Below are positions 26,099 to 42,332 of a DNA stretch of 64,000 nucleotides, in pieces. The DNA comes from Acidimicrobiia bacterium (lineage in GTDB: Bacteria; Actinomycetota; Acidimicrobiia; Spongiisociales; UBA11373): NCBI GenBank assembly GCA_040902765.1, contig JBBDWO010000029.1, positions 1 to 64,000 of the forward strand, in the 5' to 3' direction. The notes under the pieces were generated by a model. It was not told the DNA's origin and ran no database searches. It worked only from the letters and a program-made list of their open reading frames with translations. Each line of letters opens with the position of its first letter. Position 1 is the stretch's first letter. The translations under genes and the position numbers were made by a program.

Positions 26099-26134
26099 TC
26101 GCAGGCCTCACCCAGCGTGCGGGAATGTCATCCG
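26096..26134 (+). repeat. Accessory boundary repeat, copy 1
   Basis: TGATCGC, then CCTCACCC, then the core AGCGTGCGGGAATGTCAT. It lies between the kinase gene and higB, and supplies the kinase stop codon. Confidence 0.85.
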
Positions 26135-26166
26135 AAGCGGACTGATACTCGCAGTAGCGTTAGAGC

Positions 26167-26523: not shown

Positions 26524-26559
26524 ACTGCTATATCGTATTTGGTATATCGCTAACGATAT
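26520..26559 (+). promoter_or_regulatory. Promoter/operator between higB and higA
   Basis: TTGAAC (26520-26525) and TATATC (26543-26548) are spaced 17 bases, a good sigma-70-type promoter. The -10 overlaps a perfect inverted repeat ATATCG-ctaa-CGATAT (26544-26559), and another ATATCG is at 26530-26535. This suggests antitoxin-autoregulated internal transcription of higA. Confidence 0.6.
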
Positions 26560-26595
26560 GCCAATGTGATGCCGAAGAAGTACACGGGAGGGGCA

Positions 26596-26937: not shown

Positions 26938-26977
26938 ACTGCGCCAGCCGCACAACCGGCTCGTCGGCACGCAGCAC

Positions 26978-27023
26978 TGATCACGTCGCGGCACCCTCGC
27001 CGAGCGTGCGGGAATGTCACCTG
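26978..27023 (+). repeat. Accessory boundary repeat, copy 2
   Basis: TGATC, GCACCCTCGCCG, then GAGCGTGCGGGAATGTCAC. GCAC/GTGC and CTC/GAG can pair as a small hairpin. It lies between higA and the NYN gene. Confidence 0.85.
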
Positions 27024-27084
27024 AGTGGCGACGAGCATATGTGGAACCCCGACGACCGAGGGGGTGTCGTAGCCAACCCATACG

Positions 27085-27732
27085 ATGCCACGAGTGGCAA
27101 GGGTCAATGTGTATGTGGACGGCTTCAATCTCTACTTCGGGGCTCTCAAGGATCATCCTGATCTGAAGTGGCTCGATCTCGCTGCGCTCGCCAAACGCCT
27201 ACTCAAGGACGACGACACCGTCAACCAGATCAGGTACTTCACCGCTCGGATCGACTCGAGAGGTGATCCGCAGGCGCCCCAGCGACAGGAGACCTACCTC
27301 AGAGCGCTCAGGACCATCCCGAACCTGTCCATCGACTACGGACGGTTCAAGACGCGAACGAAGATGCAACGCCTCGCAAATCCACCCGCCTCGGGTCCGA
27401 AACGCGTCGAAGTGCTCGTCACCGAGGAGAAGGGATCGGACGTCAACCTCGCGACACATCTGCTCTGGGACGCGTTCAACGGCGAAGGCTCGACGTCCCT
27501 CGTCATATCGGGCGACACCGACCTCGTTCGCCCCATCGAGGTAGTGGCTCGACGTCTGAATAGGAAGGTGGGGGTCGTCAACGGGACGCTGAACGCCGCA
27601 CCAAGCCATGAGCTCGTGAGAGTCGCCTCGTGGATCAAGCGCCTGAGGATCGGAGTCCTCCGTGACTCACAGTTTCCAGAGAGCCTTTCCGACTCCACCG
27701 GCACATTCCGTCGGCCCGCTGGCTGGACATAG
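27085..27732 (+). CDS. NYN-domain (PIN-like) ribonuclease
   Basis: A 215-aa NYN/LabA-type protein. Acidic active-site residues appear in VYVDGFNLYF (Asp12), KGSDVNLATHLLWDAF (Asp119, Asp129) and SGDTDLVRPI (Asp144, Asp146). Family members are metal-dependent RNases, several linked to phage defence or RNA turnover. It stands alone between boundary repeats, followed by a strong hairpin. Confidence 0.85.
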   Translation: MPRVARVNVYVDGFNLYFGALKDHPDLKWLDLAALAKRLLKDDDTVNQIRYFTARIDSRGDPQAPQRQETYLRALRTIPNLSIDYGRFKTRTKMQRLANPPASGPKRVEVLVTEEKGSDVNLATHLLWDAFNGEGSTSLVISGDTDLVRPIEVVARRLNRKVGVVNGTLNAAPSHELVRVASWIKRLRIGVLRDSQFPESLSDSTGTFRRPAGWT

Positions 27733-27758
27733 GGAATCAGCCAGAAGGAGATAACGCA

Positions 27759-27782
27759 GAGACCCGCCTCGCGGCGGGTCTC
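27759..27782 (+). terminator. Strong GC hairpin after the NYN gene
   Basis: GAGACCCGCC-tcgc-GGCGGGTCTC is a perfect ten-base-pair stem with a four-base loop, 27 bases past the NYN stop. No T-tract follows on the plus strand, so it may be a factor-assisted terminator. Confidence 0.6.
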
Positions 27783-27843
27783 GCACCCAGCCACCGAGGC
27801 GACTGGGGGTCTGCAGTCATTATCGGGGTCATAGCCTGCTCAG

Positions 27844-27999
27844 TCAAGCGAATAGGTTCCGCAGTTGTTCGATCAGGTCTCGCCCAGGGGTGATCGTGGC
27901 GTAGTGCTCCTCGACGAGTCGTTCGATGGGTAGGGTTCGGCGTGCGCTACGTCTGCCTTGGGGTGGTGCGCGGTTGCGGAAGGAACCATGACAGCGTTC
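27844..27999 (-). pseudogene. Fragment resembling the C-terminus of a large serine recombinase
   Basis: The minus strand encodes, in a frame without a usable start, RTLPIERLVEEHYATITPGR... followed by DLIEQLRNLFA and a stop. This resembles the region after the zinc ribbon of large serine recombinases, where an 'HYATI' segment is common. The match is from memory and weak; the catalytic part is absent. If real, it is a remnant of a mobile element in the accessory region. Confidence 0.25.
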
Positions 28000-28028
28000 G
28001 GCCTTCGTTCGTTGGGGAGGGGTACTGC

Positions 28029-28994
28029 GTGGGTGAGGATGTTCGTCCGGCGCTCAAGTTCGGTGCTGACTGCTTCAGTCAGCACACAGATTGGCCGTCG
28101 TATCTGAGGGCAATGCAAGCTGCTGAGGATCTGGGCTACGACTCCCTGTGGACACCGGATCATCTGATCCCCACCCCGCCCGATGCCGACCCCGAAGGTG
28201 CGATTCTGGAGCCTTACATGTGCCTGGCCGGAGTAGCCGCCATGACCTCGAGGGCCACTCTTGGCTGCCTGGTCAGCCCGATCAGCCTCCGCCAACCGGC
28301 GCTCCTGGTGAAGATGATCACGGCCCTCGACCACATGAGCAACGGAAGAGCGATCCTCGGTTTGGGTGCCGGATGGCATCAGGAGGAGCATCGGCAATAC
28401 GGATTCGAGTTCGGGAAGGGATTCGGGGAGCGGCTCGACTGGCTTCGGCAGGCTCTCCCGGTGATGCGGGGAATGCTTGACGGAACTCGTCCGTCGTCTT
28501 TGGGAGGTCGATATGACATCCAGGAAGCGGTGAACTCCCCCGCACCCGTCCAGGCCCGCCTTCCTATCCTGATCGGCGGCACCGGCCCCAGGGTGACACT
28601 CCGACTCGTGGCCGAGTACGGAGACATGTGCAACCTGATCGGATCGCCGGACCAGGTCGCCACTGCCGAGGCCAAGCTGATCGAGCACTGTGAAGCGATC
28701 GATCGGGATCCGGCCCAGATCGAACGAACGGTCGCAATCCGTCAGCCCGTCATCCGCGATTCCCGCTCGGAAGCCGAACAGGTGCTGAACGAGATCTTCG
28801 CTCACAACGACTCCGAGCCGTGGAGCAGGGACATGATGGGAACTCCGCAGGACCTGGTTGAGAGATGTGCTCCATATGTCGAGATGGGCTACCGGCACCT
28901 CGTCTTTCAATACCTCGCCCCCTTCGATGCGCAGACGATGGAGCGCCTCGCTACTGAGGTGAGGCCGCAGCTCGAGGCCATCGCCAACGCCTGA
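28029..28994 (+). CDS. Luciferase-like (LLM) F420-type oxidoreductase
   Basis: A 321-aa member of the bacterial luciferase-like family: LGYDSLWTPDHLI, TLGCLVSPISLRQPALL, GRAILGLGAGWHQEEH, and LPILIGGTGPRVTLRLVAEYGD. Such proteins usually use F420 or FMN to oxidise small molecules. The GTG at 28029 is preferred over upstream starts because GGGGAGGGG lies just before it. It is a metabolic gene within a defence-like region; a second LLM gene lies at 41.4 kb. Confidence 0.85.
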   Translation: MGEDVRPALKFGADCFSQHTDWPSYLRAMQAAEDLGYDSLWTPDHLIPTPPDADPEGAILEPYMCLAGVAAMTSRATLGCLVSPISLRQPALLVKMITALDHMSNGRAILGLGAGWHQEEHRQYGFEFGKGFGERLDWLRQALPVMRGMLDGTRPSSLGGRYDIQEAVNSPAPVQARLPILIGGTGPRVTLRLVAEYGDMCNLIGSPDQVATAEAKLIEHCEAIDRDPAQIERTVAIRQPVIRDSRSEAEQVLNEIFAHNDSEPWSRDMMGTPQDLVERCAPYVEMGYRHLVFQYLAPFDAQTMERLATEVRPQLEAIANA

Positions 28995-29103
28995 CCCACC
29001 AGGACCTTCTGTGCGGCCCCCAAGTGTGGATCACCTGACTGGCGTGAGACGGAACGGAATCACAGCGAAGTCCTGACAGGGGTGCTGAAGGACCCGTGAC
29101 TCG

Positions 29104-29134
29104 TGATCGCCGCCGCCTCGGGGAGAGTGCGGGA
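29104..29134 (+). repeat. Accessory boundary repeat, copy 3
   Basis: TGATCGCC, GCCTCGGGG, then AGAGTGCGGGAATGTCACC. It lies between the LLM gene and the convergent GNAT gene, ending four bases from the GNAT stop. Confidence 0.85.
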
Positions 29135-29137
29135 ATG

Positions 29138-29644
29138 TCACCGGAGGGATTCCCGCCGCGGCGGATCCTGAGCGCGGGAGTGCAGCAACGTCACCGAGTG
29201 ATTGTCCGTCCTTACGACCTCGAAGCCGAACCGCTCGTACAGGCTCACGGCCCGGTTTCGGTCGTCGACCGAGAGGCTGCACCGAGTTACAGACCCCAGC
29301 AAGCGTCCCATGAGTGCGGTTCCCAGCCCATGTCCTCTCCATTTGGCAACAACCGCGATCGAGACCTCGGGCGTGTCTTCGTCTACGAATCCGTAGCCTG
29401 GTGCGTCACTCCCGAACCGGCGTACCCAAACCGCTCCCGCGGGGTCGCCTGACACGGTCTCAGCAACCCAGCCAGCATCTCCTGGCTGGCTGCCGAAGTC
29501 CCGGACGTACCTTGCAAGCTCGGGTTCGTCGACGACGGCCCTCCGCAACCGTGGATCTCCGCGTGGTACGAACAGCGCCTCGTACAACATGTCCACGAGA
29601 AACGGCTCGTCGTGCTCCGTCGCCTCACGGATACGGAACTCCAT
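29138..29644 (-). CDS. GNAT-family N-acetyltransferase
   Basis: A 168-aa acetyltransferase: EFRIREATEHDEPFL at the start, acetyl-CoA loop AKWRGHGLGTALM (the RGxGxG/A pattern), and VDDRNRAVSLYERFGFEVV at the end. The substrate cannot be inferred. The ATG at 29644 matches the fold start; a second ATG seven codons upstream and still longer frames exist. Confidence 0.8.
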   Translation of the reverse strand: MEFRIREATEHDEPFLVDMLYEALFVPRGDPRLRRAVVDEPELARYVRDFGSQPGDAGWVAETVSGDPAGAVWVRRFGSDAPGYGFVDEDTPEVSIAVVAKWRGHGLGTALMGRLLGSVTRCSLSVDDRNRAVSLYERFGFEVVRTDNHSVTLLHSRAQDPPRRESLR

Positions 29645-29798
29645 ACGCAGTGACGCTAGCGACATGCCCGCAGACAGCTCCGCCAGGTTCGGCCAGAGCC
29701 TGGAATTGTTGTATGCGTACGCGGCCGTCGCCCTCGGCTGGCGTTGCGACTGCCCCATGATCTCCCCGATCGCGGCTCTGACTGCGAGATGATCGACG

Positions 29799-30704
29799 GT
29801 GACCCGCAGGGTCGTCGAGGGTTGCCTACTCCGACGCGATGCTGAAGAGCCGGACGAGTTCGTGGTGTGGGTATGCGACTGCCTTGAGATCCAGTTGTCG
29901 CCACAGGACACATGGTTACCGGTCCGAGCTGGCTTGCCCCTCGCTACGGTCTACGCCATGGCTGGCTACGGAACGCATCTCTTCTGCCGGTCTTGGGCGG
30001 ATGATCTGATCCGTCGACTACTTGAGGTGTCACGAGGCTGGGCAAGAGAACTGCGCCTCGAGATGCACTACCGAACTCGCGCGGTTGACGGAGATAGCAC
30101 GCGGTGGGAACTCTGGGTGGACGGCAACTCCTTCGCCATCGCAGCTTGGAGCAGACAACTGGAGCGCGAATTGCCGACGGTCGCTCGAGGATTCGACCGC
30201 ATTCGCGAGAGCACGGCAGCGGCCATCGCTGAGTCTTTGGCAACGCGATGGATCGGTTGGTGTGTCGGCGATGAAACGGATCCCCGAGTCCGGACGTCCA
30301 CACGCGACGAGGGCCGATGGATCTGGCCCATCGTTGACTACCCCCTCGACACGCCGAACACTGCCCGACTGATCATGGCCGACGACTTGCTCGCGAGATG
30401 GCTTGTCGGAGAACTTCCCGAAGAGACCGTGGTTGAAGAGCTGCACACCATTGTCGAGGCGCTGTTACGCCACCGGCTCAGTGCGGGTCGATCAGTTCGT
30501 TGGCCCGAACTGCTTGTCCGGGCAGACGACGCGGGCCTACTGAGCCCGACTGAAGTCAAGGTACTGGAGGTGTTCAACCGTACGTGGCGTCGTGAGCTGA
30601 AGCACATGGGACGGGTGCTCACGACCGAGGAGCGTAAGGAAGCGAAGCGATTGTTGTGGAGTGTCCTATCGATTGCAGAGAACGCGCTCGGGAGTGCCAA
30701 GTGA
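29799..30704 (+). CDS. Hypothetical protein
   Basis: A 301-aa soluble protein from a GTG start; an internal ATG at 29958 would give 248 aa and may be the true start. The C-terminal third has LLSPTEVKVLEVFNRTWRREL and ends with TEERKEAKRLLWSVLSIAENAL, predicted helical. There are no recognised motifs. Codon use is less GC-biased than in the core genes. Confidence 0.6.
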   Translation: MTRRVVEGCLLRRDAEEPDEFVVWVCDCLEIQLSPQDTWLPVRAGLPLATVYAMAGYGTHLFCRSWADDLIRRLLEVSRGWARELRLEMHYRTRAVDGDSTRWELWVDGNSFAIAAWSRQLERELPTVARGFDRIRESTAAAIAESLATRWIGWCVGDETDPRVRTSTRDEGRWIWPIVDYPLDTPNTARLIMADDLLARWLVGELPEETVVEELHTIVEALLRHRLSAGRSVRWPELLVRADDAGLLSPTEVKVLEVFNRTWRRELKHMGRVLTTEERKEAKRLLWSVLSIAENALGSAK

Positions 30705-30879
30705 CTCTGGTGAGATCGTGTGCCGGCTAGGCGGCACCTCGGTCGTCGACCAGCGTCTGAGCGAGACGACGAGTCCAACTCCTGCGCCTCGATCGTGTCG
30801 TCAGCCTCTGGAACTGTGGCCGGTGATGTACTACTTGAGACCTGTCTTGGCCTTACGCGATCGCATTTCATGCTTCGAA

Positions 30880-31243
30880 CTAGCACTCAATGACCACGGT
30901 TCCCACTCCCACGTGCCTTCCCCATCCGCTTTTCGTTTCGAACTCCACTGCGCGCGACAATTCTCTGGCGTCCCTGAAGCAGGGGCGGTTGCACTTGAGG
31001 CACAATATCCCTGGCGAGCCTGCTCTACCTCGGGGTGGCCCGGGTGTGCAACGGATGGGCTCAGGGACTGTGCGGTTGATCTGAACACACACTTCCCTGG
31101 ATTCGCCGCAGCCGCCGCAGACCAGTCTTGCCTTGACGACCGCCGCAGACCAGTCTTGCCTTGACGAATCGCTCCAAGTTGCACCTCCAAGTCGAGATGG
31201 GCTCAACGTATCTCCAAGGTGTGACACGTTTGTGCAATCTCAT
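30880..31243 (-). pseudogene. Zinc-ribbon protein gene broken by an exact 28-bp duplication
   Basis: From an ATG at 31243 the frame reads MRLHKRVTPWRYVEPISTW... to VKARLVCGG, then is thrown out of frame by a perfect tandem 28-bp duplication (31112-31167). Removing one copy restores a 336-bp, 111-aa frame continuing CGES...IRCTPG...ILCLKCNRPCF to VGVGTVVIEC. Cys pairs CGGC and CLKC suggest a zinc ribbon. The mutation looks recent because the two copies are identical. Confidence 0.65.
31112..31167. repeat. Perfect 28-bp tandem duplication
   Basis: Two identical 28-bp units, 31112-31139 and 31140-31167. The length is not a multiple of three, so it frameshifts the overlapping zinc-ribbon gene. 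Confidence 0.95.
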
Positions 31244-31432
31244 CGGTTAACTGGCCAACGAGGATGAGGTTCACCGGCTGCAAGTTCGTGTTCTGAGTGT
31301 CTCGCGGGTGTCAAGTCGAGACAGACGGAATGTCCGCTCCCTAATCTGGCGGGGTGACTCCCGATGTAGACCACGTGGGCGCCCACCACGATCTCGAGCT
31401 CTCGATCTAGCTCGGTGCTGAGGCACTGAGGA

Positions 31433-31471
31433 CATCACCGCCACCTCGGCCGACGTACGTAAATGCCATCA
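31433..31471 (+). repeat. Accessory boundary repeat, degenerate copy
   Basis: CCTCGGCC then GACGTACGTAAATGCCAT aligns to the repeat core with mostly transition differences (about 18 of 26 positions match by eye). It falls where a boundary is expected, between the zinc-ribbon pseudogene and the AbiC-like gene. Confidence 0.45.
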
Positions 31472-31518
31472 GAACCTTGGGCCGACGGTGGTCCTGGATC
31501 TGGGTCGGCCGCGCCGAC

Positions 31519-32373
31519 CTATTCAAACCTACCGGATGACCTGAATGACAACTTCTCGGAACCCATGCTGACCGCAAGCTCATGCCAAGCGGTCTTGAGC
31601 CACCCGTAGCTCGCATCGATGGCCATGAAGTGCAGTCCTCGGAAGATGCCGAACTCCTCGGCATGCTCGGCGATGTCCCCATCGCGCTCGTTCACATCTC
31701 CCGACAGCATCCAGACCATCAAGAGAAGAAGCTCGTCGGAGGACAGTTGGGCTCGTAACAGCCGGCCGTACGTGAGGGCGCGATCGGTGTCCTCCATCGC
31801 GCCGAGAAACCTAAGTATCTCTCCCACCAACCTGAAGTAGTGGCCCATGTAGGGATAGCTGTCGCTGCTCAACTCGCCATAGGCCTGCTCTGCACGCTGG
31901 ACGGGAGACAGAGATCCGCTGGTCTCTTGAAGCAGGCGGTGCATCTGCAGAGCTAGGTGGTGGAGCGCCTGCCTTCCTGTGACGATGCCTCCAAGGTCGA
32001 GATCGCTCACCGTGTCACGATGCATTTCTAGCAGAGCGAAGAAGGCCGCTTCAGTGCGCTGTGACTCGATCGAGGCAAGCTGCGTCGCCACGACCTCACG
32101 TTGCTCCTCCATAGCCTGGCGGGCTCGTGCGATCTCCGCGCTTTGCAGTTCCAATTCGCGATTCTGGAAGAACAGCGCCACGACAACGCCCGCAAAGGCC
32201 AAGCCCGAGAACAGCGCTCCGACCAGGCCGAAGGCATCGCCCCACAGGGCGCGTTCACGCAGTCCGGGCCAGATCAGAGGCGGCCCAAACCCGACAACAA
32301 TCCACAGCAGCATGACGCCGCCGAAAGCGACGATCGCAACGGGTGTGACCCTGCGGAGCTGCCGTTCGGTCAT
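31519..32373 (-). CDS. AbiC-like putative phage abortive-infection protein
   Basis: A 284-aa protein with two N-terminal membrane helices (about 11-33 and 46-69), a coiled coil NRELELQSAEIARARQ, then FFALLEMHRDTV and the family hallmark YGRLLRAQLSSDELLLL (202-218). This layout matches the putAbiC family, linked to abortive infection in phage-infected cells. The mechanism is unknown. It occupies its own repeat-bounded interval. Confidence 0.8.
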   Translation of the reverse strand: MTERQLRRVTPVAIVAFGGVMLLWIVVGFGPPLIWPGLRERALWGDAFGLVGALFSGLAFAGVVVALFFQNRELELQSAEIARARQAMEEQREVVATQLASIESQRTEAAFFALLEMHRDTVSDLDLGGIVTGRQALHHLALQMHRLLQETSGSLSPVQRAEQAYGELSSDSYPYMGHYFRLVGEILRFLGAMEDTDRALTYGRLLRAQLSSDELLLLMVWMLSGDVNERDGDIAEHAEEFGIFRGLHFMAIDASYGWLKTAWHELAVSMGSEKLSFRSSGRFE

Positions 32374-32446
32374 CGGCTAGACAGCGTAGACCGAGCGAAC
32401 AGGATGGCACGTGACGAACAGAGATGGCCCGACAAACTCGCGGAGG

Positions 32447-32487
32447 TGATGCACCCCGCCTCAGCCAGCGTGCAGGAATGTCACCAG
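32447..32487 (+). repeat. Accessory boundary repeat, copy 4
   Basis: TGATGCACCCC, GCCTCAGCC, then AGCGTGCAGGAATGTCACC. GCAC/GTGC can pair. It lies between the AbiC-like and DUF3800 genes. Confidence 0.85.
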
Positions 32488-32505
32488 CGGAGAACGCCGA
32501 GTCGG

Positions 32506-33351
32506 CTACGGGGGTGAGAATAGGGCTGACCCAGGCTGGCGCCCCACCGGGTCGGAAACCGTGATTCCTCCACGCCACCGACCGCTGATATCGGAGTAGC
32601 GATACTGCAAGTCCTGAAACCGAGAGCCATACCGCATCCGCAAGGTGTCGTACTGCGGTGCGACGTGGACGCCTGTGATTACGCCTGCGCAGTAGGTCCT
32701 CGTTGCCATCGGGAACAGCACGCCGTTCACCAGATCCGCGATCTGTAGTCCGACGTGATTCCCGCTGCGTCCGAAGGTCGGCACTTCTACAACCCGGTTC
32801 AACTCGTCACCGAGGACTCGGTGCTTCATCGTGTACAGAGAATGGGCCACTCTCTCATCCAGCTGGTGAGTCCGGCTGTCCGCGACAACCATGCCTTCTC
32901 CGTCGTTGGAGATCAGGTATTGCTGGAACGCTCGGCACAGTGCTTGCATCGAGTAGGTGTAGGTGGAGCGACCATTGAAGGAGGCGCCGGGTGTCTTGAC
33001 CCACACTCGGGCGATCAGGCGGGCGTCGTGTGTTTCGAGTAGGTCGAACACTCGGTCCACAAACCCGATCGCTGTCCTTCTCTCGTCGCGCGAGCCGCTC
33101 CGCACGGCCCTGCGGATATCTGAAGCCTTGACCTCAACCAACACCGAGTCCAGATGGTGGCTCAATGACGACATCAGACCGGGGTAGAACCGGGTCTTGA
33201 GATCGAGGTAGGCCGCTGAAAGCGCTCCGACCTCGCTTGCGTCGATGATGAGGCCACCCAGCACGAAGACCGGCGCAACTACGGTCGGGCTCGCGCTTGC
33301 CAAGGGTATCGGCTGAGCATCACCCGCCTCATCGACGTAACAGAGGTACAT
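32506..33351 (-). CDS. DUF3800 protein (predicted RNase H-like nuclease)
   Basis: A 281-aa DUF3800 protein. It starts MYLCYVDEAGD, the family's acidic first motif (Asp7, Glu8, Asp11), and has VVADSRTHQLDE and GLQIADLVNGVLF later. The family is often encoded in defence islands and is predicted to be nuclease-like. The ATG at 33351 is preferred because homology begins exactly there. A ten-base-pair hairpin sits in its leader. Confidence 0.8.
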   Translation of the reverse strand: MYLCYVDEAGDAQPIPLASASPTVVAPVFVLGGLIIDASEVGALSAAYLDLKTRFYPGLMSSLSHHLDSVLVEVKASDIRRAVRSGSRDERRTAIGFVDRVFDLLETHDARLIARVWVKTPGASFNGRSTYTYSMQALCRAFQQYLISNDGEGMVVADSRTHQLDERVAHSLYTMKHRVLGDELNRVVEVPTFGRSGNHVGLQIADLVNGVLFPMATRTYCAGVITGVHVAPQYDTLRMRYGSRFQDLQYRYSDISGRWRGGITVSDPVGRQPGSALFSPP

Positions 33352-33403
33352 ATGGGGCCACTCTGCCAGATGCAGGCGGTGTGGGCCAGGCCTACAGGCA
33401 CAA

Positions 33404-33432
33404 CTGTGGCCCGACACAAGGCCGGGCCACAG
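33404..33432 (-). promoter_or_regulatory. Hairpin in the DUF3800 leader
   Basis: CTGTGGCCCG (33404-33413) pairs perfectly with CGGGCCACAG (33423-33432) around a nine-base loop, about 53 bases upstream of the DUF3800 start. It could be an operator or an attenuating RNA hairpin. Confidence 0.5.
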
Positions 33433-33559
33433 GACTTGCCGTCTGAGCCGAAGCCCCCACGGCGAACGATCAATGTCGCTGCCACAGAGCTTATCGCAAG
33501 GGCTGTGGCTCTGCAATAGGAATCGGTCCCATTGGCCCTGCAGTTGAGTGTTGTCGGTG

Positions 33560-33600
33560 TGATCGCTCCACCCTCGGCCAGGGTGCGGGAATGTCACCAG
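33560..33600 (+). repeat. Accessory boundary repeat, copy 5
   Basis: TGATCGCTC, CACCCTCGGCCAGGGTG, then CGGGAATGTCACC. CACCCT and AGGGTG form a perfect six-base-pair stem immediately before the conserved core. Confidence 0.85.
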
Positions 33601-33809
33601 GCCCGAGGGGCACCCCGTTCGCCAATGGGGCAATGGACGTCACTCTCAGCGCTGGTGTCTTCTCGTACTCCGATTCCGGCGGCTCCCGCGATCCTGTCGC
33701 ACTACTCCACGCCATGGGCCGATCCGCGGCCGACTGGCAACCGGTCTTCGACCGAGTGTGAGGGCAAGTACCTGCAGTGGAGATAGGGGCCACGCACTAC
33801 CCTCGGCAG

Positions 33810-34214
33810 GTGACATCATTCGAATCAATTCGGCAGGCGGTGACGAGTCACGAACAGCTCGCCATCGCCATGGCAAGCGCCACGGCTCTCGACGAGCAGG
33901 CCCGCAAGCTTGCCGAACCGCTCACCGCCCAATTCAAGGTTCTCATGGGCGAACACAGCGCCCTCGCCGCCGCGATGCGGGGGTTCGCGCGCGCGGAGTT
34001 CTCCTTCGGGAGTCTTGATCAAGCCATCCTTGGCAAGGCCGTGGACATGGCGGGGTCGTTGAAACGGCTCGCCTCGGGATTCGCCAGGCTGACGAAGACG
34101 GCATCGGCTCTGGGGCCGCAGTGGCCATCGATGGGCTTGAGGAGCGCCACGCCGGGTTGGTCTCAGCGGTCGCGCAGGAGGTTGCGGACAGGGCAGCGCC
34201 ATCCGATGTCCTGA
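33810..34214 (+). CDS. Hypothetical helical protein, possibly 5' part of a frameshifted gene
   Basis: About 134 aa from a GTG start, helical in character (TSFESIRQAVTSHEQLAIAM...). After about residue 98 the sequence becomes Arg/Ser-rich and looks out of frame, while the frame at 34121 takes over with normal composition. The two may be one gene with an indel near 34.1 kb. Confidence 0.5.
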   Translation: MTSFESIRQAVTSHEQLAIAMASATALDEQARKLAEPLTAQFKVLMGEHSALAAAMRGFARAEFSFGSLDQAILGKAVDMAGSLKRLASGFARLTKTASALGPQWPSMGLRSATPGWSQRSRRRLRTGQRHPMS

Positions 34215-34405
34215 CCGATCGCGGAAACAACGGCAACCTCCAACTGCAAGACGTCGCTCAGCTGTCCGGCCTTGTTCTCTTCTCCTTTGCCACCGTCCTA
34301 GCAGTCAGGGTCGCCTGGCTTACTACCGAAGGAGCCACATTCGTTGGCAGCGTTGCTGCTCTCGCCTTGTTGTGGGAGCGGGTGGTTAGCAAGTTCAACG
34401 AATAG
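34121..34405 (+). CDS. Hypothetical membrane-ending protein, possibly 3' part of the previous gene
   Basis: A 94-aa frame (GTG AIDGLEERHAGLVSAVAQEV...) ending in two hydrophobic segments, LSGLVLFSFATVLAVRVAWL and TFVGSVAALALLW. It overlaps the preceding frame by 94 bases and stays open upstream, which supports either a frameshifted single gene or programmed frameshifting. Confidence 0.5.
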   Translation: MAIDGLEERHAGLVSAVAQEVADRAAPSDVLTDRGNNGNLQLQDVAQLSGLVLFSFATVLAVRVAWLTTEGATFVGSVAALALLWERVVSKFNE

Positions 34406-34410
34406 CACAC

Positions 34411-34450
34411 ACTCTCCACGGCCAAGCGTGTGGGGATGCCCCCCAGGTCC
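34411..34450 (+). repeat. Accessory boundary repeat, degenerate copy
   Basis: CCACGGCCAAGCGTGTGGGGATGCC resembles the repeat core (AGCGTG.GGGAATGTC) and lies between the membrane-ending gene and the reverse transcriptase. It is weaker than the other copies. Confidence 0.4.
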
Positions 34451-34481
34451 GAGGCCCTATTAGCCGTTCGCCCGCTATCGC

Positions 34482-36236
34482 TCAAAATGGTTCGTCGTCT
34501 GGTCCGTAGTCGTCCCGCGCCACCGGAGCTGAACGAGTCGCAGCGGCGTCTGCCGCTCTGGTCACTCCAAGGTGCTGCACGAGGACATCAAGAATGCGCT
34601 CGCCACCGCGGCAAGCGTCAAGGAACACCTCCGCCCAAGAGGCACCAGCCTCTAACGCAAGGTCGGCCGCGATCACAAGGTCGGGGCGGAAGGCTTGTGG
34701 ACACTGCTTCCATAAACGGGCAAGGTCGACTCGCGTGAGCTCGCCGCGCGTGCCCAACAGACGGATCGCCGCCGCTCTGCGTGCCCAGTGTGCTGCGCCG
34801 TCCTCTGCATCGCGCCGCGCGGCCTCGATGAGTATTGCCGGGCAACTGCCGGAGACGGTTTCGGCGACGCGGTAGAGCCAGGCGGCCTGGGACGCGAAAA
34901 CGAACTGCTTCTCCGCGAGGACCGCTGCGACCACCTCGGCAACGTCACCGGCCTGCGAACTCGCCACGGCGAGGAGGTAGGTCGCGATCGCGTCCGTCTC
35001 CGACGGGTAAGCCCGCAAGAGATTGGCGCACTGATCGATTGCGAACCCGTCGTCAGCCGCGGCGAGCGTCGTTAGCGACTCTCTGAGGGTCGTGTGAAAC
35101 ACCTCCTTGGGCCAAGCCTTCTTGCCCGAACCGGGCCGATGCTTGACAGACTCCCGAAACAGGGCCTTTGCTGTCTCGACGTCGCTGGGAGTGAGATCGT
35201 CGCGCAGAATCTCGATCGCCTCACTCATGTCGAGACGCTGGTATGGCCCCAAGCCCTCGGTCCACTCCGCGGCAAACCGAATGAGGGTGTCGGGATCGTC
35301 ACCGAGCTCATCGATCATCTCCTCCGGGACTTGGAGGTGGATGAGTACCCGACGGATCTCCGCCGGCTTGCCGGACTGGAGTGCGGCGAGCTGTGCCTGC
35401 TCGTAGCGCTGCTGAAGTGCGGACTTCTCTCTCTCGTGGGCTCCAAGGGTTACCGCGTAACCGGAGACAGTCTCAACGCTGCTCTTCTCGCCGTTCAGGT
35501 TGAGACCCAACTCTCGCAGGTTGTCCTCAAAGAGAGCGAGCGCCTCGCGACCGCGCCCGTATGACGAAGCGGCGATGCGAACATCGTCGCCATGTCGCCA
35601 GTAGTCATGACCTGCAATCAACATTGAACGGTCGACGGGGGAGAGAAAGAACGTTGCGAGGACGTCTGATTCGACTAAACCCTGGGGAATGCCTCGATCT
35701 GATCGGGTGACCCTGCCAAGGAACTCTTCCAGGGCATCGACCACCTCCCGCTGGCCAGTCGCCTCGATCAAGAGGGATGCCAACCGAGAGTGGCTAATGG
35801 TCTCGTAGAAGCCTGCAACGTCAGCGACGACGATGTGAGTTGGTCGCGACTCAAGAGGCACACGCAAGAACTCGGCCCATCTCTTCGGTACCGGGGCTGA
35901 TCGGGGCCACAGGCTCGCCTCTGGGCTTGCCAGGGCCAACTCAATCCGAGGGGCGAGCCCTCTCGTGAGAGCGGCGTAGACCACTCGATCTTCGAGGGTG
36001 AGGAGCGCAGCGGAGCGCGTAGTGAAGTCGCTCTTCGGCACAGGAACCCTGATGAGAGCGACCGGCTGATATTGACCCCGTTCCATCGCACGACTTATCC
36101 GCTCCCAAAGCCGCCTGCCAACTTGCCCGAGCAACTTGTCCTCCGGTCGGGACGGCAGAAGATCGTTCCGAGTGACGGTTTGAGCCGCAGCCCCGATGTC
36201 AAGGTGGGGTGCCGCTCTTGAGAAAACGTCAGCCAT
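34482..36236 (-). CDS. Defence-type reverse transcriptase with helical C-terminus
   Basis: A 584-aa protein. Reverse-transcriptase motifs: A in VVADVAGFYETISH (Asp139), B as GIPQG (182-186), C as HGDD (215-218) in place of YxDD, and D as LGLNLNGEKS (243-252). The C-terminal 300 residues are helical and repeat-like, as in Abi/unknown-group RTs of the defence-associated (DRT) kind. No maturase or intron features are seen, so it is not a group II intron. An associated ncRNA or protein partner is not evident. Confidence 0.8.
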   Translation of the reverse strand: MADVFSRAAPHLDIGAAAQTVTRNDLLPSRPEDKLLGQVGRRLWERISRAMERGQYQPVALIRVPVPKSDFTTRSAALLTLEDRVVYAALTRGLAPRIELALASPEASLWPRSAPVPKRWAEFLRVPLESRPTHIVVADVAGFYETISHSRLASLLIEATGQREVVDALEEFLGRVTRSDRGIPQGLVESDVLATFFLSPVDRSMLIAGHDYWRHGDDVRIAASSYGRGREALALFEDNLRELGLNLNGEKSSVETVSGYAVTLGAHEREKSALQQRYEQAQLAALQSGKPAEIRRVLIHLQVPEEMIDELGDDPDTLIRFAAEWTEGLGPYQRLDMSEAIEILRDDLTPSDVETAKALFRESVKHRPGSGKKAWPKEVFHTTLRESLTTLAAADDGFAIDQCANLLRAYPSETDAIATYLLAVASSQAGDVAEVVAAVLAEKQFVFASQAAWLYRVAETVSGSCPAILIEAARRDAEDGAAHWARRAAAIRLLGTRGELTRVDLARLWKQCPQAFRPDLVIAADLALEAGASWAEVFLDACRGGERILDVLVQHLGVTRAADAAATRSAPVARDDYGPDDEPF

Positions 36237-36252
36237 GCTGAAGAGCCTAGGA

Positions 36253-36290
36253 CCCTGGGCCTCAGGCAGCGTGTGGGCATGTCATCCGAG
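36253..36290 (+). repeat. Accessory boundary repeat, copy 6
   Basis: CCTGGGCCTCAGG (stem CCTG/CAGG), then CAGCGTGTGGGCATGTCATCC. It lies between the RT start and the next minus-strand gene. Confidence 0.8.
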
Positions 36291-36310
36291 GAGGGTTCCC
36301 TGTCCGAGAT

Positions 36311-36757
36311 TCAGAGTCCGGAGTCCCTCCTGAGTTGGAACTCGGCGTAGGACCGGCCGAGGATCCGTTCGTGAAGGAGCTTCCGCAAGTCCTGAAGGTG
36401 CCGTAGCAGGTCAGACTTCCACTGCTCCTGCTCCTCCGTAAGCGGCGAACCAGGGTCGGTGTGAAGGCGAGTCTCAGCATCCCATCTGGTGAGCGTGTTG
36501 AACACAGAACGCGCTCTGTCGATCAATAATTGCTCCTTGACCCCAAGAGCCCATCCCTTTGAGATCAGCCGACCGAATCCCTGTCGCGCCCGCGGCCAAT
36601 TCTCACTACTGACGGACGACGCGAGCGGGGATAGGATCTCAGCCGCCTCAATTCTCGACTTCCTGATGAATTCGCGCCGGCTCACGAACACAGCCCCCGC
36701 CAGGGACAACGCGCCACCGAAGAGCGCGCCGATCAGCCCCAAGAAGATGTTGTCCAT
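36311..36757 (-). CDS. Small membrane-anchored protein
   Basis: A 148-aa protein with one N-terminal membrane helix (NIFLGLIGALFGGALSLAGAVFV) and a charged helical cytoplasmic part. No family recognised. The start at MDN (36757) is chosen for helix placement; another ATG is five codons upstream. Confidence 0.6.
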   Translation of the reverse strand: MDNIFLGLIGALFGGALSLAGAVFVSRREFIRKSRIEAAEILSPLASSVSSENWPRARQGFGRLISKGWALGVKEQLLIDRARSVFNTLTRWDAETRLHTDPGSPLTEEQEQWKSDLLRHLQDLRKLLHERILGRSYAEFQLRRDSGL

Positions 36758-36784
36758 GTCATCACTCCCCACTCCGAGTCTACG

Positions 36785-36820
36785 GGCTGGATTCAGCCAG
36801 CGTGCGGGAATGTCACCGGA
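36785..36820 (+). repeat. Accessory boundary repeat, copy 7
   Basis: GGCTGGATTCAGCC (stem GGCTG/CAGCC), then AGCGTGCGGGAATGTCACC. It lies between the divergently oriented small membrane-anchored gene and the next plus-strand gene. Confidence 0.85.
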
Positions 36821-36863
36821 GCAGGCTGTGTGAGGGATGAGGTTGCCGGGATACGATCTCCAG

Positions 36864-37628
36864 ATGTACGACCAGACCCGAATCGTCGATATCGACTCTG
36901 TGGACTCGTGGCCGCCCTTGGTGCTTGAGCTGATCGACCGGGTGATCGACAGCTTGGTGGGCGATGATTGGCTCAGGTATCCGAGGGATCACTTCAGGAC
37001 CGGGGACTTCGAGGAGGAGGAGCGCCTGCTGAGAGAGGCGCTGTCGTCGCATCGCCTTCTCGCGCACCACGCTGCCCGGCTACTTCAGCACGAGATTGAT
37101 GACATTCAGGAATCGTCCGGGCTGCGCGTCCTGACGGAGGATCTGCGGCTCGCAAAGGTGCAATCTGCTCTGGAGCATTATCCGGAGCTCGCAGCCCTTG
37201 ACCCGGGAGGGACAAAGATCCTTTCCGATGGGCCGAATTCCTGGCAGGGAACAGCAGGCGGCCGGATCGGCACGATCGACTTTGTGGCGCCGTTCAGCAT
37301 CTTCGAGCATCAGACGTGGGGCTTCTGGAACCTCTTTGACACCTGGGGTGGCGAGACACTGGGATGGCTCAAGGACGGCAGGGAGTCGAGCGAACTCCTG
37401 ATGCGCCTCACGGAGGCGAGCAAGCCCGTCATCGTCGAGTTCGGCGCGCGAGTCGCGACACTGAATACGTACAAGATGCTGCTTCCCGCGTTTGTCGGGA
37501 GTCGTGGCAGCGCGGACGACTACTGGGGTCAGTGGCGAACCAACGAGTCGATCCCGCCGGATTGGGTCGGGGAATTGATCACGCCCGATAGCCCACGGTG
37601 GCCGGATGGGCACGTCGAGGTGGCATAG
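36864..37628 (+). CDS. Hypothetical protein
   Basis: A 254-aa soluble protein (start MYDQTRIVDIDSVDSW; an ATG at 36837 is also in frame). The N-terminal half is acidic and helical; the C-terminal half has Trp-rich segments (HQTWGFWNLFDTWGGETLGW). No recognised family. Last gene before the broken charged-protein copy. Confidence 0.6.
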   Translation: MYDQTRIVDIDSVDSWPPLVLELIDRVIDSLVGDDWLRYPRDHFRTGDFEEEERLLREALSSHRLLAHHAARLLQHEIDDIQESSGLRVLTEDLRLAKVQSALEHYPELAALDPGGTKILSDGPNSWQGTAGGRIGTIDFVAPFSIFEHQTWGFWNLFDTWGGETLGWLKDGRESSELLMRLTEASKPVIVEFGARVATLNTYKMLLPAFVGSRGSADDYWGQWRTNESIPPDWVGELITPDSPRWPDGHVEVA

Positions 37629-37682
37629 GGAACGGAGCGCCAGGACTAGGTCCGAACCGCGGTCAGGCTGGCTGCAAGTGCC

Positions 37683-37815
37683 ATGCCGAGCGCAAGCAGC
37701 GCGAGGAGAGTCTCCCCGCCGAGGAACGCCCCAAGTCAGATCACGACGACGCCGAGCAAGGCGAGCGCAGGAACGGAGCGGATGACGACGACCGCAGGCG
37801 CGGCGTTTACGGACT
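37683..37815 (+). pseudogene. Degenerate copy of the small charged-protein gene
   Basis: The frame encodes HAERKQREESLPAEERPK...AEQGERR...ADDDDRRRG, clearly related to the protein at 25348-25542 at both protein and DNA level (GCGAGGAGAG.CT..CCGCCGAGGA is shared). The N-terminus and a proper start are missing, so it is probably a remnant. Confidence 0.6.
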
Positions 37816-37879
37816 GAGCGGCGCCTAGAAGAGCGCTCGCCTTCTCCTTTCTTGGTGCCTTCTCGAGATGGGAATCTGC

Positions 37880-37928
37880 GTTTAAGATCTTAAGTGGATT
37901 GACAGACGCTTAAACTCACGATTAGTCT
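37880..37928 (+). promoter_or_regulatory. Promoter with palindromes upstream of the DGQHR gene
   Basis: A perfect -35 TTGACA (37899-37904) and a weak -10 TAGTCT (37923-37928) at 18 bases. Inverted repeat GTTTAAG (37880-37886)/CTTAAAC (37909-37915) brackets the -35, and the 12-bp palindrome TTAAGATCTTAA overlaps the left arm. Binding of a repressor there is plausible. Confidence 0.6.
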
Positions 37929-37961
37929 CTTGCGAAGTCCCACCAAGGAAGGTAACGCCCC

Positions 37962-39245
37962 ATGTCCACACCAGATATTCCGACGCTTCCTAAGACTCTT
38001 TCGGGTCTTCAGCCGACGGATGACTATGTCGCGCAACAAACGTCCCAGGGCGGGCGGCTTCACTATGCGGTCGCGTTGCCACTTTCGCAGGTGCCGGTGG
38101 TGCTTCCTGTTCCGGACCCGGCCATACCGCTCGAAGACAACCGACAGGTCAGGGTCAATCACGCTCAGTCCTTCGCCGAGTACATCAAGAAGAACGCGGA
38201 GTGGCATGCCGGTCCCCTGACAGTTCGGACCACAGCGCGCGCCGTCTCGTTTGAGCCCTTTCCCGGGGGGGACTACGGGACTTTGAAAGTCGGCGTCCTG
38301 AAGGTGCCACGAAATGACCGGCGCAGTTTTCGCATTGTCGACGGGCAACACCGTGTCCTAGGCGTGTCTCGGCTCCTTGAGCAGCTGAGCAACGAGGTCA
38401 CCAACCAAGTGTCGAAGGTCGCTGCCGCCAAGCGAAACGGTGAACCCGCCGCGGCTGTGAACTCGCTGCAGGAGAAATTGCGTGACTTGGAGAGAATTCA
38501 GAAGCGGGTGTCGGAGGACTCAATCTTCATGGACCTGATCATTGAGAACGACACGGAGAAGGCACGTCAGATCTTCGTTGATGTCGCCAACAACGCCGTC
38601 GGAGTCACGAAGTCCGTCACCTCGCGCTTCGACTCGAGGAAGGTGGTCAATCGCGCTCTCCATGGCCTTCTAAGCGATGGCGACCTGAGCCCGGCCCTGA
38701 TCGGTCGAGTCGACCTGCAGCAGGACCGAATTGGAGGAGCCAATCCCAATCTGTTGGGCGCCAAGCACGTCGCAGACATCATCCGGATTGTCGCGGTGGG
38801 GCCTACCGGCCGTGTCTCTCGGGCCCAGGAGAAGACGCTTGACGCCGAGCTACTCGCCAGGCAAGCGAACCGGTTCTTTGAAGTGCTATCGAAAGGCTTC
38901 CCCGAGATTGAGGCAATCGCAACCGGTAGGAAGGGTCCGGCTGAACTCCGGCCCCGCAGTCTGGTGTTGTCGACCACGATGCTTCGGGTACTGGCTGGCG
39001 TCTACTACAACCTGAAGACCAACTCCGCGTCGGAGGCGGACATCGTGTCCTTCTTCAATCGCCTCGCAAAGCACATGGAAGCCCCAGTTGATGGGACGAC
39101 CCCGAGTGGCCAGCTCCTTCTAGGCGCGACGACGAGCGAGGCATTCACAGACGGTGCGACGGCGCCGGGAGCTCGGGCGCAGCAAGTGCGGGAGTTGGCA
39201 ACCGTATTGACAGAGTGGGCTACAACGCCACCACCGGGGTTTTGA
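37962..39245 (+). CDS. DGQHR-domain (DndB-like) protein
   Basis: A 427-aa protein with the ParB-like signature IVDGQHR (125-131), QVRVNHAQSFAEYI upstream, and IFVDVANNAVGVTKSVTSRFDSRK, as in DndB/DGQHR proteins. DndB controls phosphorothioate modification operons, but no dndCDE are nearby. AAGGAAGG precedes the ATG by nine bases. Its TGA overlaps the next ATG (TGATG), so the two are coupled. Confidence 0.85.
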   Translation: MSTPDIPTLPKTLSGLQPTDDYVAQQTSQGGRLHYAVALPLSQVPVVLPVPDPAIPLEDNRQVRVNHAQSFAEYIKKNAEWHAGPLTVRTTARAVSFEPFPGGDYGTLKVGVLKVPRNDRRSFRIVDGQHRVLGVSRLLEQLSNEVTNQVSKVAAAKRNGEPAAAVNSLQEKLRDLERIQKRVSEDSIFMDLIIENDTEKARQIFVDVANNAVGVTKSVTSRFDSRKVVNRALHGLLSDGDLSPALIGRVDLQQDRIGGANPNLLGAKHVADIIRIVAVGPTGRVSRAQEKTLDAELLARQANRFFEVLSKGFPEIEAIATGRKGPAELRPRSLVLSTTMLRVLAGVYYNLKTNSASEADIVSFFNRLAKHMEAPVDGTTPSGQLLLGATTSEAFTDGATAPGARAQQVRELATVLTEWATTPPPGF

Positions 39246-40183
39246 TGGGCGCAAGGAACTGGACAACTGGAGCGCGAGACTACCCAATGAACCTTGAGGA
39301 TCTCCGTGGCTCTCAGGTAGGCGATGTAGCCCTCCTCTTCGATGACAGCACGGTCGTGTCAGCGGCCTTCCATTACCACGCGCAGATCGCCTTCGCTCAC
39401 ACCGTCAACGAGCTGATTCGCCTTAGTGGCCAATCGGTGCCGATGCACTGGGATCCGAGAGTTGGCTCAGTCGAGTGGTGGCGAGTGATTGAGGGAACGG
39501 TTGCACTGCTACACAGGGTGCTTCTCCGAGAGCGAGAATCGGGGTTGCGGCCGGACCTAGCTGACTCAACAGATGAAAGAGCCGACGTCCTTGACAAGTG
39601 GTCGGCGATCGCTCGATGGTTCTCGAACGGCCTTCACTCTCCACCATCCCAACTAACTGGGCTGGTGGTAGAGCTCAGGGACTTCCGGAACTCCTTTGAG
39701 CACGCCACGCGAGCAAGCACTCGCACCCGCAAACACTCGAAGCTCGCAGAGGCCCCCGCCGCAGCGAATGTCGCTGATGCCATGGAGGCCATGGCTATCT
39801 GTGTGGCCGCCTCCGCTTACTTCCGCTACGTCCTCCCGGGGACTGACCTTATGCCGCAGATAGTCGCCCCCTCGCGAGAGCACGTGATGTTTGAACCACT
39901 GGATGTCGTCGCGCGCGAGGCCCTGTTCCCAATGTACCTGCGACTTCTTGAGGCTCGCGGCCTTGGGACCGACATCTCCCTCTACAACGGTCTTGGCCAG
40001 ATCAGAGGGCAGGCCCTCGTGAGTACGGCCCTCATCGTTCGGTATGAGGACGAGAACAGTCTGCCCGACGCGGTGCAAACGATCGATGTGCTCAGCGATC
40101 TCGGAACTTGGGTGGAGACCCGAGAGACCCCGGATCCAGGCATGTTTCGCCTACCTTCGTACGGCGTCCGGTCGCAACAATAA
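39245..40183 (+). CDS. HEPN-like protein coupled to the DGQHR gene
   Basis: A 312-aa protein. Residues 148-153 are RNSFEH, within ELRDFRNSFEHATR, matching the RNxxxH catalytic signature of HEPN RNases; the surrounding region is helical. No other domain is recognised. HEPN proteins act as RNases in toxin-antitoxin and abortive systems. The start at 39245 is fixed by the TGATG coupling. HEPN assignment rests on this motif alone. Confidence 0.6.
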   Translation: MGARNWTTGARDYPMNLEDLRGSQVGDVALLFDDSTVVSAAFHYHAQIAFAHTVNELIRLSGQSVPMHWDPRVGSVEWWRVIEGTVALLHRVLLRERESGLRPDLADSTDERADVLDKWSAIARWFSNGLHSPPSQLTGLVVELRDFRNSFEHATRASTRTRKHSKLAEAPAAANVADAMEAMAICVAASAYFRYVLPGTDLMPQIVAPSREHVMFEPLDVVAREALFPMYLRLLEARGLGTDISLYNGLGQIRGQALVSTALIVRYEDENSLPDAVQTIDVLSDLGTWVETRETPDPGMFRLPSYGVRSQQ

Positions 40184-40387
40184 GCGGTGACCGAACCCGC
40201 CCTCGACAGGTGGTGGGAGGCCATCCAAGTCAAGGACTCATGTGCAAGGCTCAGTAGCTCGATCTGTGTTGCGACTATTTCGACTATTGCGTTAAATGCG
40301 GTGATCGTGTAGGTTTGCTGCAGGAGGTAGATCATCAGCAACCAACCCGCCGCGAGAGTCTCGGAAGTCAACGATACGGCCCCCGGC

Positions 40388-40789
40388 GTGCTCGCCGACT
40401 TCCTGCGTCGTCATCCCACCCCATCCACACGCGTGATGCTCGTCGCTGATGATGTTGGTGCTCCAACCATGATCACAGTCCCATCTGAGGCTCTCAAGAT
40501 GTTCATCGAGGTCCTCGACCACTTGAAGGACGGCGTGGGAGTCTCGATCGTGCCACAGAGTGCAGAACTCACGACTCAGCAAGCCGCGGACTTGTTGGGC
40601 GTGTCCCGGCCATTCCTGATTGACAAGGTCCTGCTGCCGAATGGACCCCTTGAGTTTCGCACTGTGGGGCGTCACCGCCGGATTCGGTTTGTCGACCTGG
40701 ACACATTTCGGAAGGCCGAGGCTGCCCGACGGAAGAGGGCCGCCGATCGCGTAACCAAAATTGGCATAGATGCCGGGTTGGACGACTGA
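40388..40789 (+). CDS. Excisionase-type HTH antitoxin
   Basis: A 133-aa protein with a MerR/excisionase-like helix-turn-helix, ELTTQQAADLLGVSRPFLI...RTVGRHRRIRFVD, the usual antitoxin of PIN_3 toxins. GTG at 40388. A strong AGGAGG (40322-40327) stands before in-frame ATC codons at 40331 and 40334 with no ATG/GTG, so the true start may be non-canonical and about 18 codons upstream. Confidence 0.8.
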   Translation: MLADFLRRHPTPSTRVMLVADDVGAPTMITVPSEALKMFIEVLDHLKDGVGVSIVPQSAELTTQQAADLLGVSRPFLIDKVLLPNGPLEFRTVGRHRRIRFVDLDTFRKAEAARRKRAADRVTKIGIDAGLDD

Positions 40790-41341
40790 GTGGCCTTCCG
40801 CGTCCTCTACGACGCAAACGCCGTATTCGGTGCGCTGCAACGGAGCATTCTTGTTCGTGTTGGTGTGGCGCAGGCCAGGTTCAACCTTCGGGTCCTTCTC
40901 ACTGACGCCATCCTTGACGAGATGGTTGACGCGGTTCGACGGAAGTACTCGGACTTCAGTGAGACGCAGGGTGAGAGCCTGAAACTCGCGATCAAAGAGG
41001 CCATCCCAGATTGCCTGGTGACCGGGTACAACTACGCGATCGAGAGCGTCACCATCGCGGACCCTGACGATGGGCACGTTGTGGCCGCCGCAATCCACTC
41101 AAACTCACAACTGATCATCACCGATGACGTAGCGTTCACATCCGACGCCCTCGAACCCCACGGTCTCGAAGCACAGAGCCCAGACGACTTCCTCACCGAC
41201 CTGTTCGACCTAAACCCCGCGACGGTCCGACAGATCGTCAACGACGAGGCATCTGAAAGGAACTGTGACACCGAGGAGCTAATCGACCTCCTGGAGCAGC
41301 GCGGCTTGATCCGCCTCGCCCAACACCTGCGCCGCGACTGA
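40790..41341 (+). CDS. PIN-domain toxin
   Basis: A 183-aa PIN_3-type RNase: YDANAVFGA (Asp8) at the start, ADPDDGHVVAAAI (the acidic DxxDxH cluster) and LIITDD later, with a helical C-terminal extension. The GTG follows directly after the antitoxin TGA. Confidence 0.85.
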   Translation: MAFRVLYDANAVFGALQRSILVRVGVAQARFNLRVLLTDAILDEMVDAVRRKYSDFSETQGESLKLAIKEAIPDCLVTGYNYAIESVTIADPDDGHVVAAAIHSNSQLIITDDVAFTSDALEPHGLEAQSPDDFLTDLFDLNPATVRQIVNDEASERNCDTEELIDLLEQRGLIRLAQHLRRD

Positions 41342-41414
41342 GGACTCCACGCCTTGACCTAGCGTCGACAAGACCAGGGACGTGCGCCGACTCTCAGATG
41401 TGAAACCAGCGCTA

Positions 41415-42332
41415 TCAGCAAGCGTGCACTCTCTCGACTACGTCGGCCATCGCCTCGACGGCTTCTACGGTCTTCGGGTAGAGGTCGCAACGTACTTCGG
41501 TGAAGCCGAGGGACTGGAACCCGAGGAGTGTGCTGGTTATCTCCTCGGGCGAACCGGAGAGTGGGTGTCCGATCCCTGTCGCTCCGTCCGCCTCGGCGCT
41601 ATTCATGGGATCCAGGGTGTAGGCGTCGAGGGTCCGCACCAGAGTGTCGGGATCTCTGCCGACCTCTTCGCAGGCTCGTTCAAGCTCTTCTACCAAGGGG
41701 GTCAGTGTCTCTGTCGCGGTCCGGTGGTCGGTGGACCACCAGTTCCACGCGTCGGCGTACTGGGCGGCCAGCCTCATCATCTTCGGGCCCCCGGCGGCGA
41801 TGATGATCGGCGGGCCACCCGGGCGCGGGCCTTGGAGTACCAGTTCAGATTGCTTGGCGGAGTGAAAGTCGCCGTCGTAGTCGACGGAACCCGACTTGAG
41901 CAGACCGTGGATGATCTCGATCGCCTCCGCGAAGCGTGAGTACCGGTGGTCGGTCGGGAACCCGAACGCCTCATAGTCCGAGTCCGGGGTGTTGCCAGCG
42001 CCGATGCCGAACAGGTAGCGCCCACCCGATATCTCATCGATAGTCACCGCCATCTTCGCGGTGAGGGCCGGAGATCGATAGGGAGCGTTGACGACGGACT
42101 GGCCAATGTTGATCCGGCCCGTAGCGGCTGCGAGCGCCGCCGCGATGGACATCGACTCCAGGCAGCCGTAGGTCTCCTTGGGACCGCGATACAAGAGTGC
42201 GTCCTCGAACACGAAGCTGTCGAATCCCACGGCTTCGGCCGCGCTGGCAAGGCGGAGAACCCGTTCCCAGGTGGGGGCCGGCTTCGACCCGTCTGGGCTT
42301 CCGTGCAGCTGAGCGATTAGCCCAATTCTCAT
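41415..42332 (-). CDS. Luciferase-like (LLM) F420-type oxidoreductase
   Basis: A 305-aa LLM-family protein: FDSFVFEDALLYRG, ATGRINIGQSVVNAPYRSP, GRYLFGIGAGNTPDSDYEAFGFP, and PPIIIAAGGPKMMRLAAQYADAWN. The cofactor is probably F420 or FMN; the substrate is unknown. It marks the return to core-like composition after the accessory region. Confidence 0.9.
   Translation of the reverse strand: MRIGLIAQLHGSPDGSKPAPTWERVLRLASAAEAVGFDSFVFEDALLYRGPKETYGCLESMSIAAALAAATGRINIGQSVVNAPYRSPALTAKMAVTIDEISGGRYLFGIGAGNTPDSDYEAFGFPTDHRYSRFAEAIEIIHGLLKSGSVDYDGDFHSAKQSELVLQGPRPGGPPIIIAAGGPKMMRLAAQYADAWNWWSTDHRTATETLTPLVEELERACEEVGRDPDTLVRTLDAYTLDPMNSAEADGATGIGHPLSGSPEEITSTLLGFQSLGFTEVRCDLYPKTVEAVEAMADVVERVHAC

Follow-up and report, generated by a model that had tools for sequence, protein, structure and literature searches.

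DndB (PF14072/TIGR03233), a regulator of DNA phosphorothioation (sulphur modification), is the autorepressor of dndBCDE clusters, and in Salmonella it acts through palindromes to repress its own operon (PMC4507180). The protein has been assigned to the ParB fold (PMC10853773, PMC12704722), and a DndB-like protein has been found to bind both ATP and GTP (PMC12704722). In 2013, Anantharaman et al. described HEPN families encoded in operon with ParB-fold genes, together with HEPN-ParB fusions (PMC3710099). Our literature search found no paper joining DGQHR proteins with HEPN. What DndB-like proteins do where no dnd cluster surrounds them is a question on which the subfamily described here bears.

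Organization and setting of the locus

Both genes of the locus lie on contig C29, part of an assembly of 1.99 Mb that is 97% complete; the window is the whole 64,000-nucleotide stretch of this contig that was analysed. The features of the locus are:

37880..37915, no strand: inverted repeat GTTTAAG ... CTTAAAC (arms 37880-37886 and 37909-37915), bracketing TTGACA
37882..37893, no strand: 12-bp palindrome TTAAGATCTTAA, candidate operator of gene 1, 80 bp before its start codon
37899..37904, + strand: TTGACA, a -35-like hexamer, for which no good -10 was found
37962..39245, + strand: gene 1, 427 aa, DndB-like, DGQHR at residues 127-131, predicted ParB/Srx-type NTPase fold
39245..40183, + strand: gene 2, 312 aa, mostly helical, RNSFEH at residues 148-153, candidate HEPN RNase

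Direct reading of the sequence confirmed the features given for the pair in the preliminary description: the DGQHR pentamer, the TGATG overlap, and the 312-aa partner with its RNSFEH motif. The genes overlap by one base, the TGA stop codon of gene 1 occupying 39243-39245 and the ATG start codon of gene 2 occupying 39245-39247. A good ribosome-binding-like sequence (AGGAAGG) is found upstream of gene 1, and reading of the sequence in front of gene 2 revealed no obvious ribosome-binding site, which fits translational coupling. Neighboring bacterial genes, even unrelated ones, often overlap by a few bases, so coupling by itself says little about a shared function. The codon-position GC of both genes resembles that of other genes in the surrounding island, and this similarity, together with the overlap, makes co-expression of gene 1 and gene 2 likely.

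The island and its principal genes are:

26000..42000, no strand: low-GC island holding the locus, 60-63% GC versus 66-73% in flanking 2-kb blocks
26167-26937: HigBA-like genes
27085-27732: NYN gene
31519-32373: putAbiC
32506-33354: DUF3800
34482..36236, - strand: UG22-class reverse transcriptase (DRT; PADLOC RT_UG22, 1.7e-93, residues 11-550 of 584; Pfam RVT_1)
40388-40789, + strand: HTH_17 gene (Pfam)
40790-41341, + strand: PIN_3 gene (Pfam), forming a toxin-antitoxin-like pair with the HTH_17 gene

These observations support a DGQHR gene that overlaps the next gene translationally and lies in a defence setting away from any dnd cluster. The reverse transcriptase beside the pair had been overlooked in the earlier account; its C-terminal part continues for about 300 aa past the RT domain, and a literature search returned no relevant paper naming UG22. 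The island also holds non-defence genes, e.g., a luciferase-like monooxygenase, and the window contains no tRNA. Two further island proteins encoded on the + strand (36837-37628, 263 aa; 29799-30704, 301 aa) gave no significant Pfam or PADLOC match.

Family and predicted fold of gene 1

Gene 1 matches Pfam PF14072 with 107.2 bits (1.2e-30, cut-off 29.1) and the NCBIfam DGQHR profile TIGR03187 with 75.7 bits (4.8e-21, cut-off 58.85), so that by profile score the DGQHR motif is a true family match and no chance pentamer. The pentamer is invariant across a 17-sequence alignment, in which blocks such as FVDV and HVAD are also conserved. The protein had been called DndB-like, which holds at the level of the family but not for DndB proper: the score against the DndB equivalog TIGR03233 is 32.6 bits versus a cut-off of 328. 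The DpdB profile gave 12.8 bits (cut-off 300).

An AlphaFold2 model built from a 15-sequence alignment reached pLDDT 75. Its structural matches are weak (SspE, Z 6.9; PadC, 6.0; ParB, 5.9; Noc, 5.8; BrxU, 5.7), within a Z range of 5.6-6.9 in which unrelated helical rows score equally high, and the two SspE rows (Z 6.9 and 6.7) have rmsd values of 19.4 and 17.6. Foldseek returned no match for this model. The model matches are consistent with the published ParB-fold assignment of DndB, and do not prove that gene 1 shares it.

A subfamily without sign of a Dnd system

Searching with an alignment of three sequences, we obtained 18 full-length relatives of gene 1, 35-50% identical to it and located on 15 genome contigs, 2 plasmids and 1 viral contig (loci designated L below). 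The closest, L009 (50% identity), comes from a MAG labelled Acidobacteria; the named hosts are mostly actinobacterial. Gene 1 is a member of a rare, mainly actinobacterial DGQHR subfamily. The claim that no dnd gene lies nearby extends to the whole assembly, which yielded one PF14072 gene, no match to DndC, and none to DndD above cut-off. The same result for DndC and DndD was obtained in all 12 of the relatives' genomes tested, and the subfamily thus shows no sign of the Dnd phosphorothioation system.

Several relatives have defence genes as neighbors. In Microbispora amethystogenes (L010, 1-10433), BREX-type PglZ-BrxD-BrxHI and a kinase gene are followed by the DGQHR gene and then by a 960-aa TPR protein. 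A DruM-type (Druantia-type) methylase and Vsr lie near the DGQHR gene in L023, a PD-Lambda-5_A-like protein and a D12 methylase in L018, PDC-S28 and HNH in L014, and type I restriction and Pycsar genes on the L007 plasmid. Other relatives sit among ordinary genes, and proximity to defence genes is noted here locus by locus.

Some further features of these loci were noted. The DGQHR genes of L007 (Hoyosella) and L008 (Streptomyces) are solitary genes on mobilizable MOBF plasmids; both are annotated as DndB, and the 13-kb stretches fetched around them carry no other annotated dnd gene. On the L008 plasmid a TPR protein is likewise encoded downstream of the DGQHR gene. Nocardia aurantiaca (L022) encodes two proteins with DGQHR-type motifs next to each other, since the DGQHR gene is immediately preceded by a ParB-like gene (5095-5940) carrying VDGQHR.

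A candidate operator upstream of gene 1

The preliminary description gave the pair its own promoter, bracketed by inverted repeats. TTGACA, GTTTAAG and CTTAAAC are all present, and the extended arms (37877-37886 and 37909-37918) are 90% complementary, but a consensus promoter scan found no -35/-10 pair before gene 1, leaving the promoter only half supported. The palindrome TTAAGATCTTAA, a more significant element than the repeat, had been missed. When TTAAGNNCTTAA was searched with at most one mismatch, the 1.99 Mb assembly contained a single match, the one at TTAAGATCTTAA; 0.01 sites of this type are expected in the window. The element TACGN10CGTA was not found by direct reading of the 130 bp upstream of gene 1.

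We tested the window-derived motif on the 140 bp preceding gene 1 in the 18 relatives. Sites scoring at least 8/10 were found in four of them (L018, L021, L007, L008), versus 0.12 expected, and were absent in the other 14; the entire 229 kb of the relatives' loci contains only 12 such sites. Best or near-best sites cluster at -93 to -96 before the start codon in six loci (L007, L008, L011, L018, L021, L023). With background windows from the relatives' loci as reference, the combined P of the upstream sites was 4e-5. Shuffling only the upstream sequences, with their AT-richness preserved, gave a combined P of 0.17, which is not significant, with L018, L021, L007 and L008 significant singly. L009 has no TTAAG palindrome. 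Like L007, it carries an 8-nt perfect inverted repeat that differs in sequence but has similar spacing, the arms in L009 being 19 nt apart.

Gene 1 is the sole shared gene seen at these loci, which makes its product the likeliest binder. From the recurrence of the sites, the sharing of gene 1 alone, and the precedent of Salmonella DndB, we infer that gene 1 probably regulates itself; of the mechanistic steps proposed below, this one is the best supported.

Gene 2 and the recurrence of the pair

Gene 2 is an orphan in every set searched. It matched no Pfam family up to E = 10, HEPN profiles included; NCBIfam and PADLOC, searched up to E 1, and PHROGs gave no match either, and PDB sequences gave a single insignificant row. 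No homologue was found in 1,077 genome scans (296 from the phylum, 138 from the order, 395 from the class and 248 from the order of L009's genome, the sets overlapping), plasmids, phages or viral contigs, one of these empty searches having been run without a positive control. Weak order-level matches (E 0.005-0.009) were rejected as unrelated proteins, several of them polyprenyl-synthase-like. Phage matches at E 0.06, spanning 64 residues and falling in genes for hyaluronidase or hypothetical proteins, were also rejected.

The RNSFEH motif had been read as the HEPN RNase signature. It is indeed present, in the form Rx4-6H with N, D or H after the R, and lies in the middle of a helix (134-161) predicted with low confidence, as in HEPN domains. 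Shuffled sequences with the composition of gene 2 contain R-x4-6-H in 91% of cases, R[NDH]x3H in 9% and RNx3H in 2%; the loose form of the motif is thus close to chance and carries little weight. For an orphan sequence, the missing HEPN profile match is in turn not decisive. Structure prediction, proposed earlier as a check against HEPN folds, gave an all-helical single-sequence AlphaFold model whose pLDDT of 43.8 is too poor to judge the fold, and Foldseek and VIA-align returned generic helical bundles only. We treated the Foldseek rows as meaningless at this pLDDT and discounted a Csx1-Crn2 row (Z 8.3) with an rmsd of 9.1. The helical look of the model and the residue that follows the R make a HEPN assignment of gene 2 plausible.

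The survey of co-occurrence, set beforehand as a refuting test, gave this answer within the searched data: the pair does not recur. No gene 2 homologue was found within the fetched flanks of any of the 18 relatives (0/18; tblastn against the fetched loci returned gene 2 itself only), and gene 1 is followed there by assorted unrelated genes or by none. PF14072 loci drawn from the phylum likewise had no gene-2-like partner beside them; one has an overlapping downstream gene, which we read as not HEPN-like. Since every relative of gene 1 lacks gene 2, gene 1 functions without it. The earlier proposal of a self-contained two-gene defence or toxin-antitoxin system is therefore not supported, in the 18 relatives or in the wider searches for gene 2, and by these comparisons the pair looks like a one-off variant and not a widespread new system.

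Discussion

How might a DGQHR gene that stands alone elsewhere work together with a partner found only here? Gene 1, from its rare actinobacterial subfamily, would encode an NTP-binding protein with a ParB/Srx fold. By attaching to the TTAAG-type palindrome and the inverted repeat of its promoter, this protein would repress its own gene, the way DndB represses dnd operons. Gene 2, all-helical and probably a HEPN-type RNase, would have been captured into this operon and be translated by coupling to gene 1. In the uninfected cell, the transcript would be held down and the gene 2 protein restrained by gene 1; upon phage infection, altered NTPs or foreign DNA would change the state of gene 1, repression or inhibition would be released, and the freed RNase would stop growth. 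The abortive-infection role is suggested by the island setting and by the HEPN/ParB precedent. We assign this whole account, a self-repressed DGQHR gene with a captured probable HEPN gene acting in abortive defence, a tentative probability of roughly 0.38. Against it weighs the HEPN assignment, which draws on a near-chance motif and a poor model with generic helical-bundle matches. Further points against it are the absence of gene 2 from the relatives, the frequency of short overlaps between unrelated neighbors, the missing TTAAG palindrome in L009, and the 14 of 18 relatives without an 8/10 site. The more far-reaching version, in which an NTP-binding DGQHR repressor from a phosphorothioation-free subfamily serves as infection sensor and restraint for a new, diverged HEPN RNase, forming an abortive module unrelated to dnd, we consider rather unlikely.

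Nearly as likely as the captured-effector account is a reading without any two-gene system: gene 1 would be a regulator or NTPase of the DGQHR type that acts alone and represses itself, as in its relatives, and gene 2, whether HEPN or not, would be one of the island's unrelated genes that ended up downstream of it. In favor of this reading, gene 2 is an orphan in all sets searched, the fetched flanks of 18/18 relatives lack it, and islands bring unrelated genes next to one another; yet the TGATG overlap and the similar codon-position GC make co-expression likely, and operons of ParB-fold and HEPN genes have published precedents (PMC3710099). A type II toxin-antitoxin system, with gene 1 as antitoxin and autorepressor and gene 2 as HEPN toxin, would explain the gene order, the overlap and the palindromic candidate operator of the pair, and it accords with the toxin-antitoxin genes in the surroundings and with the 5' position taken by the partner in HEPN dyads such as MNT-HEPN (PMC3710099). 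Gene 1, however, persists without any toxin partner in every relative, unlike an obligate antitoxin; no homologous pair was found, with a recurring two-gene operon present in 0/18 relatives; and both proteins exceed the usual size of toxin-antitoxin components. A classical toxin-antitoxin system is for these reasons quite unlikely. That gene 1 is a DndB, left over from a DNA phosphorothioation system or acting as a sensor for one, is very improbable: it shares PF14072 with DndB and its model weakly resembles SspE, a PT sensor (Z 6.9, rmsd 19.4; Z 6.7, rmsd 17.6), but its 32.6 bits are far under the equivalog cut-off of 328, TACGN10CGTA is missing from the 130 bp upstream, and neither DndC nor an above-threshold DndD was detected here or in 12 relatives' genomes. 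We rejected this role on the DndC and DndD results, which largely refute it.

Whichever reading of gene 2 is preferred, the sequence comparisons point to a useful by-product: a small, solitary actinobacterial DGQHR subfamily without DndC/DndD, recurrently near defence genes and with an operator-like palindrome in some members. Whether it regulates itself and takes part in defence can be tested directly in laboratory hosts. If the HEPN pairing is real, the ParB-HEPN theme known so far would reach into the DGQHR branch as well, a modest step for a single instance.

Comparison with known systems

Gene 1 shares with DndB the DGQHR motif, the PF14072 family and palindromic sites in its own promoter; unlike DndB, it scores far below the equivalog cut-off and resides in an assembly without dndC and without dndD above cut-off, and its candidate operator is of the TTAAG type whereas that of DndB is TACGN10CGTA. 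With DpdB of the dpd system it has the DGQHR domain in common, at only 12.8 bits against the cut-off of 300. HEPN-MNT type II toxin-antitoxin systems likewise place a 5' partner gene before a candidate HEPN gene in one operon, but their partner is a nucleotidyltransferase, whereas here it is a predicted ParB-fold protein, and the present pair is not conserved. The HEPN and ParB operons (MAE_28990, RiboL-PSP-HEPN) and fusions (Saro_3948) similarly set a ParB-fold gene, here a predicted one, beside a candidate HEPN gene in a defence context; in contrast to the MAE_28990 and RiboL-PSP-HEPN operons, gene 2 matches no Pfam HEPN profile, no methylase gene is adjacent, and gene 1 belongs to the DGQHR/DndB branch.
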